Under the pieces are notes generated by a model. The model saw nothing but the letters and a program-made list of their open reading frames with translations, did not search any database and had not been told where the DNA came from. A program made the position numbers and the translations under genes. A DNA stretch of 6,927 bases, taken from contig CAMLFK010000260.1 of assembly GCA_946479255.1 (NCBI GenBank), positions 1 through 6,927 of the forward strand. The letters are read 5' to 3'. Below are positions 2,041 through 6,927 of the stretch, piece after piece. The stretch comes from an uncultured Oxalobacteraceae bacterium. Lineage in GTDB: Bacteria; Pseudomonadota; Gammaproteobacteria; Burkholderiales; Burkholderiaceae. The number at the start of each line of letters is the position of its first letter. Positions within the stretch are counted from its first letter, which is position 1.

Positions 2041-3516
2041 ATGCACGTTTCCGAAATCCTGTCCGCGCTGCCGCTCGACCGCAGCGCCGGCACGCCCTTG
2101 TTCCGCCAGCTCTACGCCGCCGTCAAGGACGCCGTCCTGCAGGGCACGCTCACGCCCGGCCTGCAACTGCCGCCAACGCGCGCGCTGTGCGAACTGCTGG
2201 GCGTCTCGCGCCAGACGGTGCTCAATGCCTACACCCAGCTGATGGCCGAGGGCTTCCTGACCGGTACGGTGGGCAAGGGCACTTTTGTGAGCGAACACCT
2301 GTCGCCCGACATGCGCATCAAGCCGAACACGCAGGCAGCTGGCCTGATGCGGCCCTTGTCGGAGCGTGGGCAAGCTTATGCGGCGGCGATGAAGAACACC
2401 CGCACTCATGGCGACGAGATCCGCGCCTTCCGGCCCAGCATGCCCGGCCTGGACCTGTTTCCCTTCGATGTGTGGAGCCGGCTGGAGGCGCGCCGCTGGC
2501 GCCGGCCTGGCCATCACCTGGGTTATTCCGACCCGGCCGGCTTCGCACCGCTGCGCGAACTCCTGTGCGTCTACCTGCGCGCGGCGCGCGCGGTCAACTG
2601 CAGCCCGGACCAGATCGTCATCACCTCCGGTTCGCAGCAAGCCTTGTACCTGCTGTCGGCCTTGCTGCTGGCCCCTGGCGACAAGGTTTGGGTCGAGTCC
2701 CCCGGCTACCCCGGGGCGGCGGCGCCGCTGACGGCCGTGGGGGCACGGGTCTGCACGGTGCCGGTGGACGCGGGCGGCATGGATGTGGCGTTTGCCGCAG
2801 CCCGGTATCCCGATGCCAGGATGGTCCTGACCACGCCCTCGCATCAGCTGCCGCTGGGCGTAACCATGAGCCTGCAGCGCCGCCTGGAGCTGCTGCGCTG
2901 GGCCGAACAGGCGCGCGCCTGGGTGATCGAGGACGACTACGACAGCGAGTTTCGCTACGGTGGCCCGCCGCTGGCGTCCCTGCAGGGGCTCGACCGCAGC
3001 GGCAGCACGGTCTATGTCGGCACCTTTTCCAAGGTGCTGTTTCCCAGCCTGCGCCTGGGCTACGTGGTGGCGCCGCCGGCCCTGGTGGAACCTTTAATGC
3101 GCGCCAAGGCGGTGGTGGACCGGCATAGCCCGCTGCCGCCGCAGATGGTGCTGGCCGACTTCATGGAGGGCGGCCACTTCAGCCGCCACATCAAGCGTGC
3201 GCGCGAAGCCTACCGCGAGCGGCGCGATGCGCTGCTGGACGGGATCGCCACGCATCTGCAGGATGAACTGATCGTCGGCCCGGTCGATGCCGGGCTGGAT
3301 TTGTGCGTGCAGTTCCGCCGCACGCGCGACGAAGCGGCGGTGGTGCGGGCGGCCGAACAGGCCGGCATCGACTTGCGCGGCCTGGCCTATTACGCCAACC
3401 CGGCCGCGATCCCCGAGTGCGCGGTGGCGCCCGGCCTGCTGCTGGGATTTGCGGCGGTGCGTCCTGAATACATCGCCAGCGGCGTGGCGAAGCTGGCCAA
3501 AGTGCTGCGGAGCTGA
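2041..3516 (+). CDS. MocR/GabR-family transcriptional regulator (GntR wHTH + PLP aminotransferase fold)
   Basis: A 491-residue protein with the standard MocR architecture (GabR is about 479 aa). A GntR-type winged helix spans roughly residues 18-83 (TPLFRQLYAAV, then LPPTRALCELLGVSRQTV, then the wing GKGTFVSE). After a linker of about 40 residues, a class I aminotransferase-like domain runs to the end. PLP-site residues are visible: GSQQA around nt 2632-2646, TPSHQLPLG, D298 and Y300 in EDDYDSEF, and the Schiff-base lysine K331 in TFSKVLFPSLRLGY; the D298/Y300/K331 spacing equals that of D279/Y281/K312 in GabR. It should bind PLP, and a PLP adduct or amine ligand, and act as a dimeric DNA-binding regulator rather than a transaminase. 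The ATG is the only start available: an in-frame stop lies at 2014-2016. There is no Shine-Dalgarno sequence before it. It is divergent from osmC-paiB, its probable target, and tag starts 14 bases after its stop. The ligand cannot be told from sequence. Confidence 0.93.
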   Translation: MHVSEILSALPLDRSAGTPLFRQLYAAVKDAVLQGTLTPGLQLPPTRALCELLGVSRQTVLNAYTQLMAEGFLTGTVGKGTFVSEHLSPDMRIKPNTQAAGLMRPLSERGQAYAAAMKNTRTHGDEIRAFRPSMPGLDLFPFDVWSRLEARRWRRPGHHLGYSDPAGFAPLRELLCVYLRAARAVNCSPDQIVITSGSQQALYLLSALLLAPGDKVWVESPGYPGAAAPLTAVGARVCTVPVDAGGMDVAFAAARYPDARMVLTTPSHQLPLGVTMSLQRRLELLRWAEQARAWVIEDDYDSEFRYGGPPLASLQGLDRSGSTVYVGTFSKVLFPSLRLGYVVAPPALVEPLMRAKAVVDRHSPLPPQMVLADFMEGGHFSRHIKRAREAYRERRDALLDGIATHLQDELIVGPVDAGLDLCVQFRRTRDEAAVVRAAEQAGIDLRGLAYYANPAAIPECAVAPGLLLGFAAVRPEYIASGVAKLAKVLRS

Positions 3517-3530: not shown

Positions 3531-4103
3531 ATGACCAAACAACGCTGCTCATGGGCCAACCCGGCCAATCCGCGCTACCTCGATTACCACGACAAGGAGT
3601 GGGGCGTGCCCTGCCATGACGAGACGCGCCTGTTCGAGATGCTCAACCTGGAAGGCGCCCAGGCAGGCCTCTCCTGGGAGACCATCCTCAACAAGCGCGA
3701 GAGCTACCGCGCCGCCTTCGACCAATGGGACCCGGTCAAGATCGCCGCCTACGATGATGCCAAGGTGGCGTCGCTGCTGGCCGACCCGGGCATCGTGCGC
3801 AACCGCCTCAAGGTGGCCGCCGCGATCACCAATGCCAAGGCCTACCTGCGCTTGCGGGAAGAAGGCAGTTCGCTCGATGCCTACCTGTGGGCCTTCGTCG
3901 ATAACAAGCCGATCGTCAATGCGTGGACCCGCGAAACGCGGCCGGCCAGGACGGAGCTGGCGGACCGCATCTCCAAGGACCTGGCCAAACGGGGCTTCAA
4001 GTTCGTCGGCCCGACCATCGTCTACGCCTACATGCAGGGCATCGGCATGGTCGACGATCATGACGTCGATTGCTTCTGCCACAGCCGTGCCAGGCGCGCA
4101 TGA
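3531..4103 (+). CDS. tag: DNA-3-methyladenine glycosylase I
   Basis: A 190-residue homologue of E. coli Tag (187 aa), the constitutive base-excision repair enzyme that removes 3-methyladenine from alkylated DNA. It is recognisable along its full length. All four zinc-snap ligands are present: C6 (RCSWA), H20 (YHDKEWG), and H177 and C181 in the C-terminal HDVDC. The catalytic-region glutamate corresponds to E41 in LEGAQAGLSW (E38 in E. coli). It is cytoplasmic, with no signal peptide. The ATG at 3531 gives the expected N-terminal length before the first zinc cysteine, but it has no Shine-Dalgarno sequence; expression may depend on readthrough from mocR or on a leaderless promoter. Its stop codon overlaps the start of the MnmC-type gene as ATGA (4100-4103). 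The pairing with a tRNA-modification gene has no obvious functional logic beyond both being nucleic-acid maintenance enzymes. Confidence 0.97.
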   Translation: MTKQRCSWANPANPRYLDYHDKEWGVPCHDETRLFEMLNLEGAQAGLSWETILNKRESYRAAFDQWDPVKIAAYDDAKVASLLADPGIVRNRLKVAAAITNAKAYLRLREEGSSLDAYLWAFVDNKPIVNAWTRETRPARTELADRISKDLAKRGFKFVGPTIVYAYMQGIGMVDDHDVDCFCHSRARRA

Positions 4104-5749
4104 TCTGGCAGGAACATTGGGCCGGCCGCGACAGCTTCGTCATCTTCGATGCACGCTTTGATGCCGCGGCCTTCGACGCCACCCTGAAAGCCTGGCGCAA
4201 GGACCCGCGCCGGTGCGCGCGCCTGCACTACATCGCGCTGGACCCCAAGGCCGCATTGCCGGGCTTTCGCCGTGTGCCCGGGTTTGGCGAATCAGTGACC
4301 TTGGACCTGCTGGGCGCGCCCATCGACGCCGCGCTGGCGCAGCTGCGCGCGCGGATCGACGCGGCCTGGCTGCATGGCCTGGCGGACGCCGGCACCAATT
4401 TCCCCCGCGCGCTGGGGCGCCTGGCCGCTCCAGGCATGCGCATTGCCTGCGAGGGCCTGTCCGCGGCCCAGCTGCGCTCACTCGAGGCGGCCAGCTTCAG
4501 CCTGGCGGCGCAGGGCGCACGGGGCGAGTACACCAGCCGCCGGCCATTCATGCCGCCGGCAGCGGAACGCGAGCGGCGCGCGGTGGTGATCGGCGCCGGC
4601 CTGGCCGGCAGCGCCGCCTGCCAGCGCCTGGTGGCGCGCGGCTGGCAGGTGACCTTGGTGGAGCGTCATGCCCATCCGGCCGGGGAAGCTTCCGGCAACC
4701 TGGCCGGGATCGTCATGCCGCTGCTCTCGCGCGACGACAACGTCATGACGCGCCTGTCGCGCGCAGCCTTCCTGTACGCCCATGCTTATTGGGATGCGCT
4801 GGGCGGGATCGGGCGCGGCGGGGTGATCGCGGGCGAACGCTGCGGCGTGCTGCAGCTGGCGCGCGACGCCGGCCACGCCGAGGTGCAGCGGGCGATTGCG
4901 GCCGAACAGCATCTGCCGGACTGGTTCGCCGAATGGCAGGGCAGCGCGCAGGCTTCCGAACGCCTGGGCGCGCCGGCACCGCACGGCGCCTGGTGGTTTC
5001 CGCAAGGCGGCTGGGTGCGCCCATCGTCCGCCTGCGGCGCCATGCTGACCGCCTGCGGCGAAGCGCTGGTGCGGCGCTTCGGCAGCGGCAGCGTGATGCT
5101 CGAGCGTACCAGCGCCGGCTGGGCGGTACGCGGCGCGGCGGGGCAGGTGGTGGCGGAGGCGCCGGTGGTGATCCTGGCCGGCGGCGCATCGGCGCGGGCG
5201 CTGCCGCAGGCCGCTTCGCTGCCATTGGCGCCGGTGCGCGGCCAGGTCACGCACCTGCAGGCGGGCAGTGTGACGGCACGCCCATTCGTGCTGTGCCGCG
5301 AAGCCTACCTGACCCCGGCGGTGCGCGGCTGGCACAGCACCGGCGCCACCTACGACGACGATGAAGGGCGCGAGCTGCGCGCATCGAGCCAGCAGGCCAA
5401 CCTGGACAAGCTGCGCGCCATGCTGAACGATCCGCACGCGGCGCAGGGCGCGCCGCTGGCCGGCCGGGTGGGCTTTCGCTCGGTGGCGCCGGACCGCCTG
5501 CCGCTGGTGGGCGCGCTGCCCGACCCGGATGCCGGCACGCGCCTTGAACGCCTGCGCGAAGTGCCGCGCCATCCCGGCCTGTATGGGCTGCTCGGCTATG
5601 CCTCGCGCGGGCTGGCGTGGGCGCCGCTGGCGGCCGAACTGCTGGCCGCGCAGCTGGACGGCTCGCCCCTGCCGCTCGAGGCTGAACTGGTCGACGCGCT
5701 CGACCCGGCCCGCTTCCTGCTGCGTGAGCGGCGGCGCAACACCGTGTAA
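4100..5749 (+). CDS. mnmC: MnmC-type FAD-dependent tRNA cmnm5(s2)U34 oxidoreductase with a degenerate methyltransferase domain
   Basis: A 549-residue protein. I place the start at ATG 4100, overlapping the tag stop; the longer reading from a TTG at 4070 adds only ten residues encoded inside tag. The FAD half is complete: the dinucleotide-binding motif GAGLAGSA (G165, G167, G170) with E188 ending the second strand, then ASGNLAGIVMPLLSRDDN, then C-terminal GRVGFRSVAPDRLPLVG, GYASRGLAWAPLAAELLAAQ and ALDPARFLLR. This is the MnmC signature: the enzyme removes the carboxymethyl group from cmnm5(s2)U34 in tRNA anticodons to give nm5(s2)U. E. coli MnmC (668 aa) then methylates this with its N-terminal SAM domain. 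Here that half is only about 160 residues and is eroded: the usual GFGxG loop reads RFDAA (19-23), and the usual DAxxLDGF reads DAAWLHGL (87-94). About 60 N-terminal residues and an internal segment are also absent. Alignable remnants (FVIFDARF, LKAWRKDP, LHYIALDP, GTNFPRALGRLAAPG) show shared ancestry. Loss of methylation is inferred. Confidence 0.88.
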   Translation: MIWQEHWAGRDSFVIFDARFDAAAFDATLKAWRKDPRRCARLHYIALDPKAALPGFRRVPGFGESVTLDLLGAPIDAALAQLRARIDAAWLHGLADAGTNFPRALGRLAAPGMRIACEGLSAAQLRSLEAASFSLAAQGARGEYTSRRPFMPPAAERERRAVVIGAGLAGSAACQRLVARGWQVTLVERHAHPAGEASGNLAGIVMPLLSRDDNVMTRLSRAAFLYAHAYWDALGGIGRGGVIAGERCGVLQLARDAGHAEVQRAIAAEQHLPDWFAEWQGSAQASERLGAPAPHGAWWFPQGGWVRPSSACGAMLTACGEALVRRFGSGSVMLERTSAGWAVRGAAGQVVAEAPVVILAGGASARALPQAASLPLAPVRGQVTHLQAGSVTARPFVLCREAYLTPAVRGWHSTGATYDDDEGRELRASSQQANLDKLRAMLNDPHAAQGAPLAGRVGFRSVAPDRLPLVGALPDPDAGTRLERLREVPRHPGLYGLLGYASRGLAWAPLAAELLAAQLDGSPLPLEAELVDALDPARFLLRERRRNTV

Positions 5750-5834: not shown

Positions 5835-6542
5835 ATGGACGATGCGCCGGGCGACAATCCGCTATTTCTGTTCCTGGCGTCGACGGCGCACGACATGAAA
5901 AATTCGATCAGCGTCCTGTCCGGGACGCTGGAGACACTGATCGCCGGCGCCTCGCCACAGGTCGATGCCGCCTATCCGCAGATGGCGCACATGCTGTACC
6001 AGACCAAGCGCCTGAACGACAACCTGATCCAGCTTCTGGCGCTATATAAACAGGTCGGCCAGCCCGAATACCCGTTCGATGTGCAGCCGCTGGAAATCGG
6101 CCACCTGGTCGAGCAGGTGGTGGCGAGCGACCGCATCCTGCTCGATTCCAAGGGCATTGAACTCGAAGCCGACTTCGATCCGGCGCTGCTGTGGCATTTC
6201 GACGAAGACTTGATCATCGGCGTGGTGGGCCACGCCATCAATAACGCCATTCACTACACGCGCGACCGCATCCGCATCGCCATCGCCAAGGTGGACGACG
6301 ACCTGGAGATCCGGGTCGAGGACAACGGCGAAGGCTATCCGGCGGCGATGCTGGAGGCCGGCGTCTCGGCCATGCACGGCGCCAGCGCCGGGGTAAACTT
6401 CCTGACCAACAGCACCGGCCTGGGACTGTACTTTTCCAGCGAGGTCGCCAAGATGCACAAGCACCGCAATCGCTGCGGCAGCCTGCGCCTGGAAAACGGC
6501 GGCAAGTTCGGCGGCGGCTGTTTCGTATTGAGGCTGCCATGA
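5835..6542 (+). CDS. Soluble sensor-less histidine kinase
   Basis: A 235-residue protein made only of a dimerisation/phosphoacceptor helix pair and a HATPase domain. The phosphoacceptor is H19 in STAHDMKNSISVLSG, a HisKA-like H-box almost at the N terminus. The ATP-binding boxes follow: N box with N136/N137 in HAINNAIHYT, G1 box DNGEGYP (D163), and G2 box STGLGLYFSS (G195, G197). There is no signal peptide, transmembrane segment, PAS, GAF or HAMP, so it is cytoplasmic and must receive its signal through a partner or its own four-helix bundle. It should autophosphorylate H19 and pass the phosphate to the adjacent receiver protein. The start at 5835 is set by AGGAG at 5821-5825. Its TGA overlaps the start of the receiver gene as ATGA, so the two are translationally coupled. 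The segment between the G1 and G2 boxes (SAMHGASAGVNF) is not the usual F-box sequence. Kinase identity is firm; the signal and direction (kinase or phosphatase) are unknown. Confidence 0.88.
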   Translation: MDDAPGDNPLFLFLASTAHDMKNSISVLSGTLETLIAGASPQVDAAYPQMAHMLYQTKRLNDNLIQLLALYKQVGQPEYPFDVQPLEIGHLVEQVVASDRILLDSKGIELEADFDPALLWHFDEDLIIGVVGHAINNAIHYTRDRIRIAIAKVDDDLEIRVEDNGEGYPAAMLEAGVSAMHGASAGVNFLTNSTGLGLYFSSEVAKMHKHRNRCGSLRLENGGKFGGGCFVLRLP

Positions 6543-6927
6543 GCGCGCCGACCATGAACGCCACGCTGGCCACCAGCATCCAGCATGTGGATTGGGCCGC
6601 CAAGAACTATCTGGTGGTGGACGACTTCATCGGTGTGCGCCAGCTGCTGCGCGAAAGCCTGCGCAACCTGGGCGCCAAGAATATCGACCAGGCCTCCAGC
6701 GGCGGCGAAGCCATGGTGCTGCTGGGACGGGTGCGCTACGACGTGGTCCTGTGCGACTACAACCTTGGCGAAGGCAAGAACGGCCAGCAGGTGCTGGAAG
6801 AAGCGCGCATCCGCAACCTGCTTCTGCCGAGCAGCGTGTGGCTGATGGTGTCGGCTGAGAAGAGCGTCGAGTCGGTGATGGGCGCGGCCGAGCACCAGCC
6901 GGACGCCTACCTGATCAAGCCGATCAC
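6539..6927 (+). CDS. Response regulator receiver domain, 3'-truncated by the window edge
   Basis: The reading frame is open to the last base (129 codons visible). After a 22-residue lead-in, a CheY-like receiver domain begins: acidic pair D28/D29 in LVVDDF, phosphoacceptor D73 in LCDYNLGEGKNG, switch residue S105 in MVSAEKS and conserved K127 in LIKPI. All catalytic residues are present, so it should be phosphorylated by the kinase encoded just upstream. The ATG at 6539 overlaps the kinase stop and has GAGG (6530-6533) five bases before it; an alternative ATG at 6554 has no comparable site. The output domain lies beyond the window. The conserved GEGKNGQQVLEEAR stretch and the partner kinase remind me of receiver proteins that carry C-terminal tetratricopeptide repeats rather than a DNA-binding domain, but nothing in the window proves that. 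Confidence 0.92.
   Translation, partial: MSAPTMNATLATSIQHVDWAAKNYLVVDDFIGVRQLLRESLRNLGAKNIDQASSGGEAMVLLGRVRYDVVLCDYNLGEGKNGQQVLEEARIRNLLLPSSVWLMVSAEKSVESVMGAAEHQPDAYLIKPI

Follow-up and report, generated by a model that had tools for sequence, protein, structure and literature searches.

A fused MnmC whose pseudo-methyltransferase half is probably retained as a structural partner in an uncultured Oxalobacteraceae bacterium and its relatives

The window analyzed here (a stretch of 6,927 nucleotides from contig CAMLFK010000260.1 of an uncultured Oxalobacteraceae bacterium) carries an mnmC gene (4100..5749, forward strand; 549 residues) in which a pseudo-methyltransferase half is fused to a half dependent on flavin adenine dinucleotide (FAD). 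The interpretation favored here, to which a probability of roughly 0.65 is assigned, is that this MnmC keeps an old pseudo-methyltransferase domain as a structural partner, and that the wobble-uridine pathway probably ends at 5-aminomethyl-(2-thio)uridine, nm5(s2)U34. The FAD half, as an intact domain scoring above its curated cut-off, would still turn the carboxymethylaminomethyl form, cmnm5(s2)U34, into nm5(s2)U34; the N-terminal half (termed here the remnant) would remain folded and in contact with the FAD half, and, judging from sequence and model, would be unable to methylate, being without the residues that bind S-adenosylmethionine (SAM) and activate the amine. The remnant would be kept since it stabilizes the FAD half, as selection, invariant interface residues and published E. 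coli data suggest, and the end product would most likely be nm5(s2)U34 rather than the methylaminomethyl form, mnm5(s2)U34. If this is true, a large bacterial group has mnmC and yet lacks mnm5(s2)U34, the canonical end product. The literature searched (including searches for MnmC with Oxalobacteraceae and with Betaproteobacteria) yielded no account of a dead-half MnmC.

The mnmC frame is uninterrupted from its ATG at 4100 to its TAA at 5747-5749. The FAD-dependent cmnm5U oxidoreductase half (residues 157-546; 4568..5737, forward strand) matches TIGR03197, the model for this half, with 375.3 bits over residues 161-546 (curated cut-off 174.2) and PF01266 with an E-value of 7.9e-43; moreover, the FAD-half residues listed in Table 2 of PMC3648344 (E. 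coli 271, 273, 287, 518, 567, 578, 619 and 653) are all kept, reading GGGGRGGR in the window. As far as its sequence can tell, this half is complete. The N-terminal half is harder to recognize: taken by themselves, residues 1-162 hit no Pfam family at E<=1, and at that threshold neither of the methyltransferase-half models, NF033855 and PF05430. The same piece does match NF002480, the model for bifunctional MnmC, with an E-value of 4.6e-10 (the whole protein scores 421.4 bits, below the curated cut-off of 540), and, because the predicted structure also superposes on E. coli MnmC, homology to MnmC extends beyond chance to the N-terminal half. The reading of this gene as an MnmC homologue with an intact FAD half, first made from the letters alone, is thus borne out. 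Relative to MnmC(o)/MnmC1 (the TIGR03197 type), the protein is alike in its FAD half (375 bits over a cut-off of 174) but unlike in keeping an N-terminal pseudo-domain; relative to stand-alone MnmC2/MnmD (NF033855, PF05430), the remnant shares ancestry yet matches neither model.

The remnant (residues 1-150; 4100..4549, forward strand) is folded in the model and is without the SAM loop and the catalytic aspartate. In the bifunctional E. coli enzyme (3ps9, 3awi) the methyltransferase half comprises 245 residues, versus about 150 here; what distinguishes the window protein is the absence of the SAM loop glycines, of Asp178 and of the N-terminal 45 residues. By alignment with MAFFT these 45 residues are without counterpart in the window, the largest internal gap spans E. 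coli 104-133 (30 residues), smaller gaps occur at E. coli 166-169, 183-188 and 232-239, among others, and 43 of the 149 aligned residues of the remnant are identical. The sequence-only reading had the internal segment right and overestimated the N-terminal loss at about 60 residues; its motif readings prove correct. The glycine loop G66-F67-G68-T69-G70 of E. coli is replaced by RFDAA (residues 19-23; 4154..4168, forward strand), and motif IV, DAWFLDGF in E. coli, faces DAAWLHGL (residues 87-94; 4358..4381, forward strand), which places His92 (4373..4375, forward strand) at the position of Asp178. According to PMC3648344, the SAM pocket has Glu101 and Asp178 as its polar residues, the latter being the likely base, and Phe24, Asp26, Phe67, Gly68, Gly70, Phe180 and Pro182 are conserved in the methyltransferase half; the stretch with Phe24 and Asp26 is gone from the window protein.

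This loss is shared across the family, as a survey of 245 genomes indicates. These belong to one family, were reached from Massilia sp. CF038 (L001) and were chosen by similarity to the window, whose own genome is not among them; completeness figures are absent, so that single absences carry little weight. The FAD half scores over its cut-off (TIGR03197) in 144 genomes and the methyltransferase half (NF033855) in 27; both do so in 22, so that no methyltransferase half reaches its cut-off in 122 of the 144 FAD-positive genomes, a figure that includes fragments and FAD-only frames. The best 120 homologues are 536-574 residues long. For a residue-level comparison 133 rows were aligned and 127 kept, namely the window, E. 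coli, Halothiobacillus and 124 family genomes (16 of the 144 FAD-positive genomes lie outside the alignment). Left out of both tree and counts were L001 (the same gene as L012), L132 (no FAD half), L108 (FAD-only), L111 (split frames), and L115 and L128 (split matches or a long insert), the last two being without Glu101 and Asp178. Under a rule based on three residues (Glu101, Asp178 and Gly179), 112 of the 127 rows have a dead half and 15 an intact one; among the family genomes the numbers are 111 and 13, so that the loss of the motifs is indeed clade-wide, as a check proposed earlier had asked. Since L107, although intact by the rule, is without the SAM loop glycines, residue comparisons use 14 intact rows.

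Dead-half loci probably include ones from Massilia (e.g., G149), Herbaspirillum (G027, G164), Collimonas (G198, G118) and Glaciimonas (G113, G055), and Duganella and Janthinobacterium proteins (P0184, P0332) are likewise without Asp178 and Glu101. Annotation names already hint at the difference, because NCBI mostly names the short or dead-half proteins for the FAD activity alone and the intact ones 'bifunctional' (exceptions: P0238, P0329); JGI names for such proteins, where given, are mostly 'bifunctional'. Another change is also shared: Glu64 is Asp in 101 of the 112 dead-half rows and Glu in 14/14 intact rows.

That the remnant is retained as a folded partner, as proposed from the sequence, is supported by its fold, by selection and by its invariant interface residues. 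In the AlphaFold2 model the first ten-residue block of the remnant has a predicted local distance difference test score of 83 and the other fourteen have scores of 90-97; residues 1-548 of the model can be laid over E. coli MnmC, starting from E. coli residue 46, with the two-domain arrangement kept. Selection was gauged by the ratio of nonsynonymous to synonymous substitution rates (dN/dS, or omega), using a simple Nei-Gojobori procedure with no likelihood model and relying on 32 disjoint close pairs. Pooled over these pairs, dN/dS is 0.30 for the remnant (upper bound 0.365) versus 0.23 for the FAD half, and omega for the remnant is below 1 in 31 of the 32; the window's own pair (WIN/L003) gives 0.44 and 0.37, respectively. 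Over all dead-half pairs (n=3325) the medians are 0.64 and 0.45, with the remnant higher in 2955, these values being higher because divergent, non-independent pairs are included. The remnant is under clear purifying selection, somewhat looser than that on the FAD half; the earlier description of it as decaying therefore holds insofar as constraint is somewhat reduced, and fails insofar as purifying selection is clear. All 112 dead-half rows have Leu at the place of E. coli Leu95 (window Leu42; 4223..4225, forward strand), which lies near the interdomain interface, and Gly at the place of Gly137 (window Gly55; 4262..4264, forward strand), an interface residue, both roles being those given in PMC3648344.

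Stabilization is the simplest role for such a remnant, because, according to PMC3936742, the separated domains of E. coli MnmC bind each other (dissociation constant 87 nM), and the undivided protein is the more stable form in vivo. A role in tRNA binding, which had been offered alongside, finds no support: Lys236, to which PMC3648344 ascribes RNA binding, is Lys in 0/112 dead-half rows. A new function of the remnant, for instance in contacting a different protein or a ligand rather than just propping up the FAD half, could account for the clear constraint, for the Asp that replaces Glu64 and for the His found at position 178 in 47 of the 112 rows; it is nonetheless distinctly unlikely, inasmuch as conservation in the remnant is highest at residues that intact MnmC conserves as well, and no new motif was noticed, though no search aimed at one was made.

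Several observations weigh against the structural-partner interpretation and have to be set beside the alternatives that they favor. First, an acid may still occupy the Glu101 place in the window. MAFFT sets Glu101, which contacts the SAM ribose, opposite Pro49 with a gap adjacent, but an ungapped pairing of YIALDPKA with FISFEKFP gives Asp48; because YI[AG]LD also occurs in five of the 66 other proteins compared (P0001, P0002, P0003, P0006 and P0009, all near the window), the motif II acid may persist in this small group. Parts of the SAM loop likewise persist in dead-half rows (Gly70 in 101/112, Phe67 in 75/112, Gly68 in 73/112), as does Asp178 in 15/112, so that SAM binding may survive in some relatives; in L038, Asp178, Gly179 and an acid at 101 are retained without the SAM loop. 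Together with the retained fold and purifying selection, these features are what one would cite for a methyltransferase that has diverged and rebuilt its SAM pocket but still works. Such an enzyme is very unlikely, given that the window protein has neither Asp178 nor the glycines of the loop nor the N-terminal segment to which Phe24 and Asp26 belong, and that position 178 in the dead-half rows is a mixture (His 47, Ala 20, Asp 15, Arg 11, Pro 8, Leu 4 and others) unlike a rebuilt site.

Second, in 23 of the 32 close pairs constraint on the remnant is weaker than on the FAD half, and the comparison with intact proteins comprises only five pairs, in which the methyltransferase half (0.37) is never higher than the FAD half (0.42). 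Third, G015 has a 408-residue FAD-only MnmC (L108:1480-2706, reverse strand) whose gene immediately follows a TraB/gumN gene; the remnant is absent, and this protein groups with three dead-half proteins (98/94 support). In addition, E. coli MnmC(o) alone folds and works, as stated in PMC3936742; because G015 has deleted the remnant and MnmC(o) works alone, the remnant is not strictly needed everywhere. Plain neutral decay toward loss would fit the deletion in G015, the lower constraint in those 23 pairs and the N-terminal-half matches of G232, spread over three frames. It is nevertheless extremely improbable in view of a pooled omega with an upper bound of 0.365, an omega below 1 in nearly every pair, a loss common to 111/124 aligned genomes and a confident fold.

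The frames in G232 (L111) reflect either sequence errors or a gene that is broken. In G015 one alignment (L085) extends past the FAD-only start by about 50 codons, but this upstream stretch is the end of the TraB/gumN gene in the same frame (PF01963, E 5.5e-63) and no remnant. In G123, G201, G212 and G230 the FAD half also scores over cut-off in short frames, possibly representing more FAD-only MnmC; the FAD-positive frames of these genomes and G015 are 370-409 residues long, too short for a methyltransferase half.

Finally, the survey leaves aside the window's own genome, and a methyltransferase of a novel family would escape searches with family models. A dead half combined with some further, still unknown methyltransferase family that completes mnm5(s2)U34, giving the same end product as in E. 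coli, would also explain how these bacteria avoid the loss of the step, which lowers competitiveness in E. coli (PMC3936742). One genome offers a precedent: G236 encodes a separate MnmC2 (L131:1918-2688, reverse strand; 256 residues) with an intact active site, scoring 239 bits (cut-off 136) and 59-66% identical to ten active-site-keeping methyltransferase sequences of the same family, while its fused MnmC (L060) has a dead half--that is, a natural complementation. Among dead-half genomes, however, this is the only separate MnmC2 over cut-off; beyond it, these genomes show a single extra PF05430 match, a weak one in G062 (21.9 bits, positions 21-88 of 124). The earlier expectation of a separate methyltransferase thus holds for G236 and for that genome only.

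Its proposed form, MnmM/YtqB (PF06962), which would catalyze the step missing here, is not seen at all: MnmM was found in 0/245 family genomes (the window's own not covered), with B. subtilis and L. lactis controls detected, nor was it found in the genome of L001. This absence agrees with PMC9976899, according to which the distributions of mnmM and mnmC are mutually exclusive. An additional, novel methyltransferase is therefore rated rather unlikely, and nm5(s2)U34 would be the most likely end product because no other known nm5U methyltransferase was found in the relatives. The first step of the pathway stands, MnmG being present in 46/46 dead-half genomes tested.

The closest parallel is the E. 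coli mnmC(m)-G68D mutant, which likewise has a working FAD half and a dead methyltransferase half and whose tRNA contains 85% nm5s2U and 15% cmnm5s2U (PMC3936742, Table 2); because that mutant accumulates nm5s2U, dead-half bacteria should, by analogy, carry nm5(s2)U34. As described in the same source, the mutant is a laboratory strain with a fitness cost, whereas the dead half here occurs naturally and widely across the family. The wider proposition, toward which the evidence leans a little less firmly than toward the interpretation of the window gene, is that bacteria around Massilia, Herbaspirillum, Collimonas and Glaciimonas have given up the last wobble-uridine methylation, use nm5(s2)U34 as the mature form and have long kept the dead half as a partner of the oxidase. 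These proteins constitute a graded natural series of domain death in a fusion, with intact forms, partial active-site loss, a pseudo-domain held by selection, complete deletion (G015) and a second copy encoded separately (G236). Such a series allows a direct test of why a dead domain persists.

As to the number of losses, parsimony needs three changes of the dead/intact label. On a 56-row tree the approximately unbiased (AU) test weakly rejects a single clade of all 43 dead-half rows (p 0.0375); without L095 and L110 a clade of 41 dead-half rows is not rejected (p 0.296). The AU test and parsimony do not establish several independent losses; one main loss with a few later ones is possible, and the shared Glu64-to-Asp change fits one main event.

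Two other arrangements of MnmC2 were seen in the survey. In G011, G021, G037 and G052 MnmC2 scores over its cut-off and the FAD half does not, which is the reverse architecture. A copy in G185 was set aside as a separate MnmC2, because it runs to the contig end and may be a cut fused gene.

Within the window, mnmC is preceded by a tag-like DNA-3-methyladenine glycosylase gene (3531..4103, forward strand; PF03352, E 1.1e-77), whose stop overlaps the mnmC start (ATGA). A Tag match occurs at 74/111 dead-half loci versus 0/13 intact loci, and corresponds to the Massilia-type branch of the tree. Farther upstream, a GntR/aminotransferase regulator gene (2041-3516), presumably of the MocR type, lies opposite an FMN_bind_2 gene (855-1472) and an OsmC-like gene (1473-1937). 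Downstream of mnmC are a HATPase_c kinase-like gene (5835-6542) and then an overlapping response-regulator gene (6539-6925).
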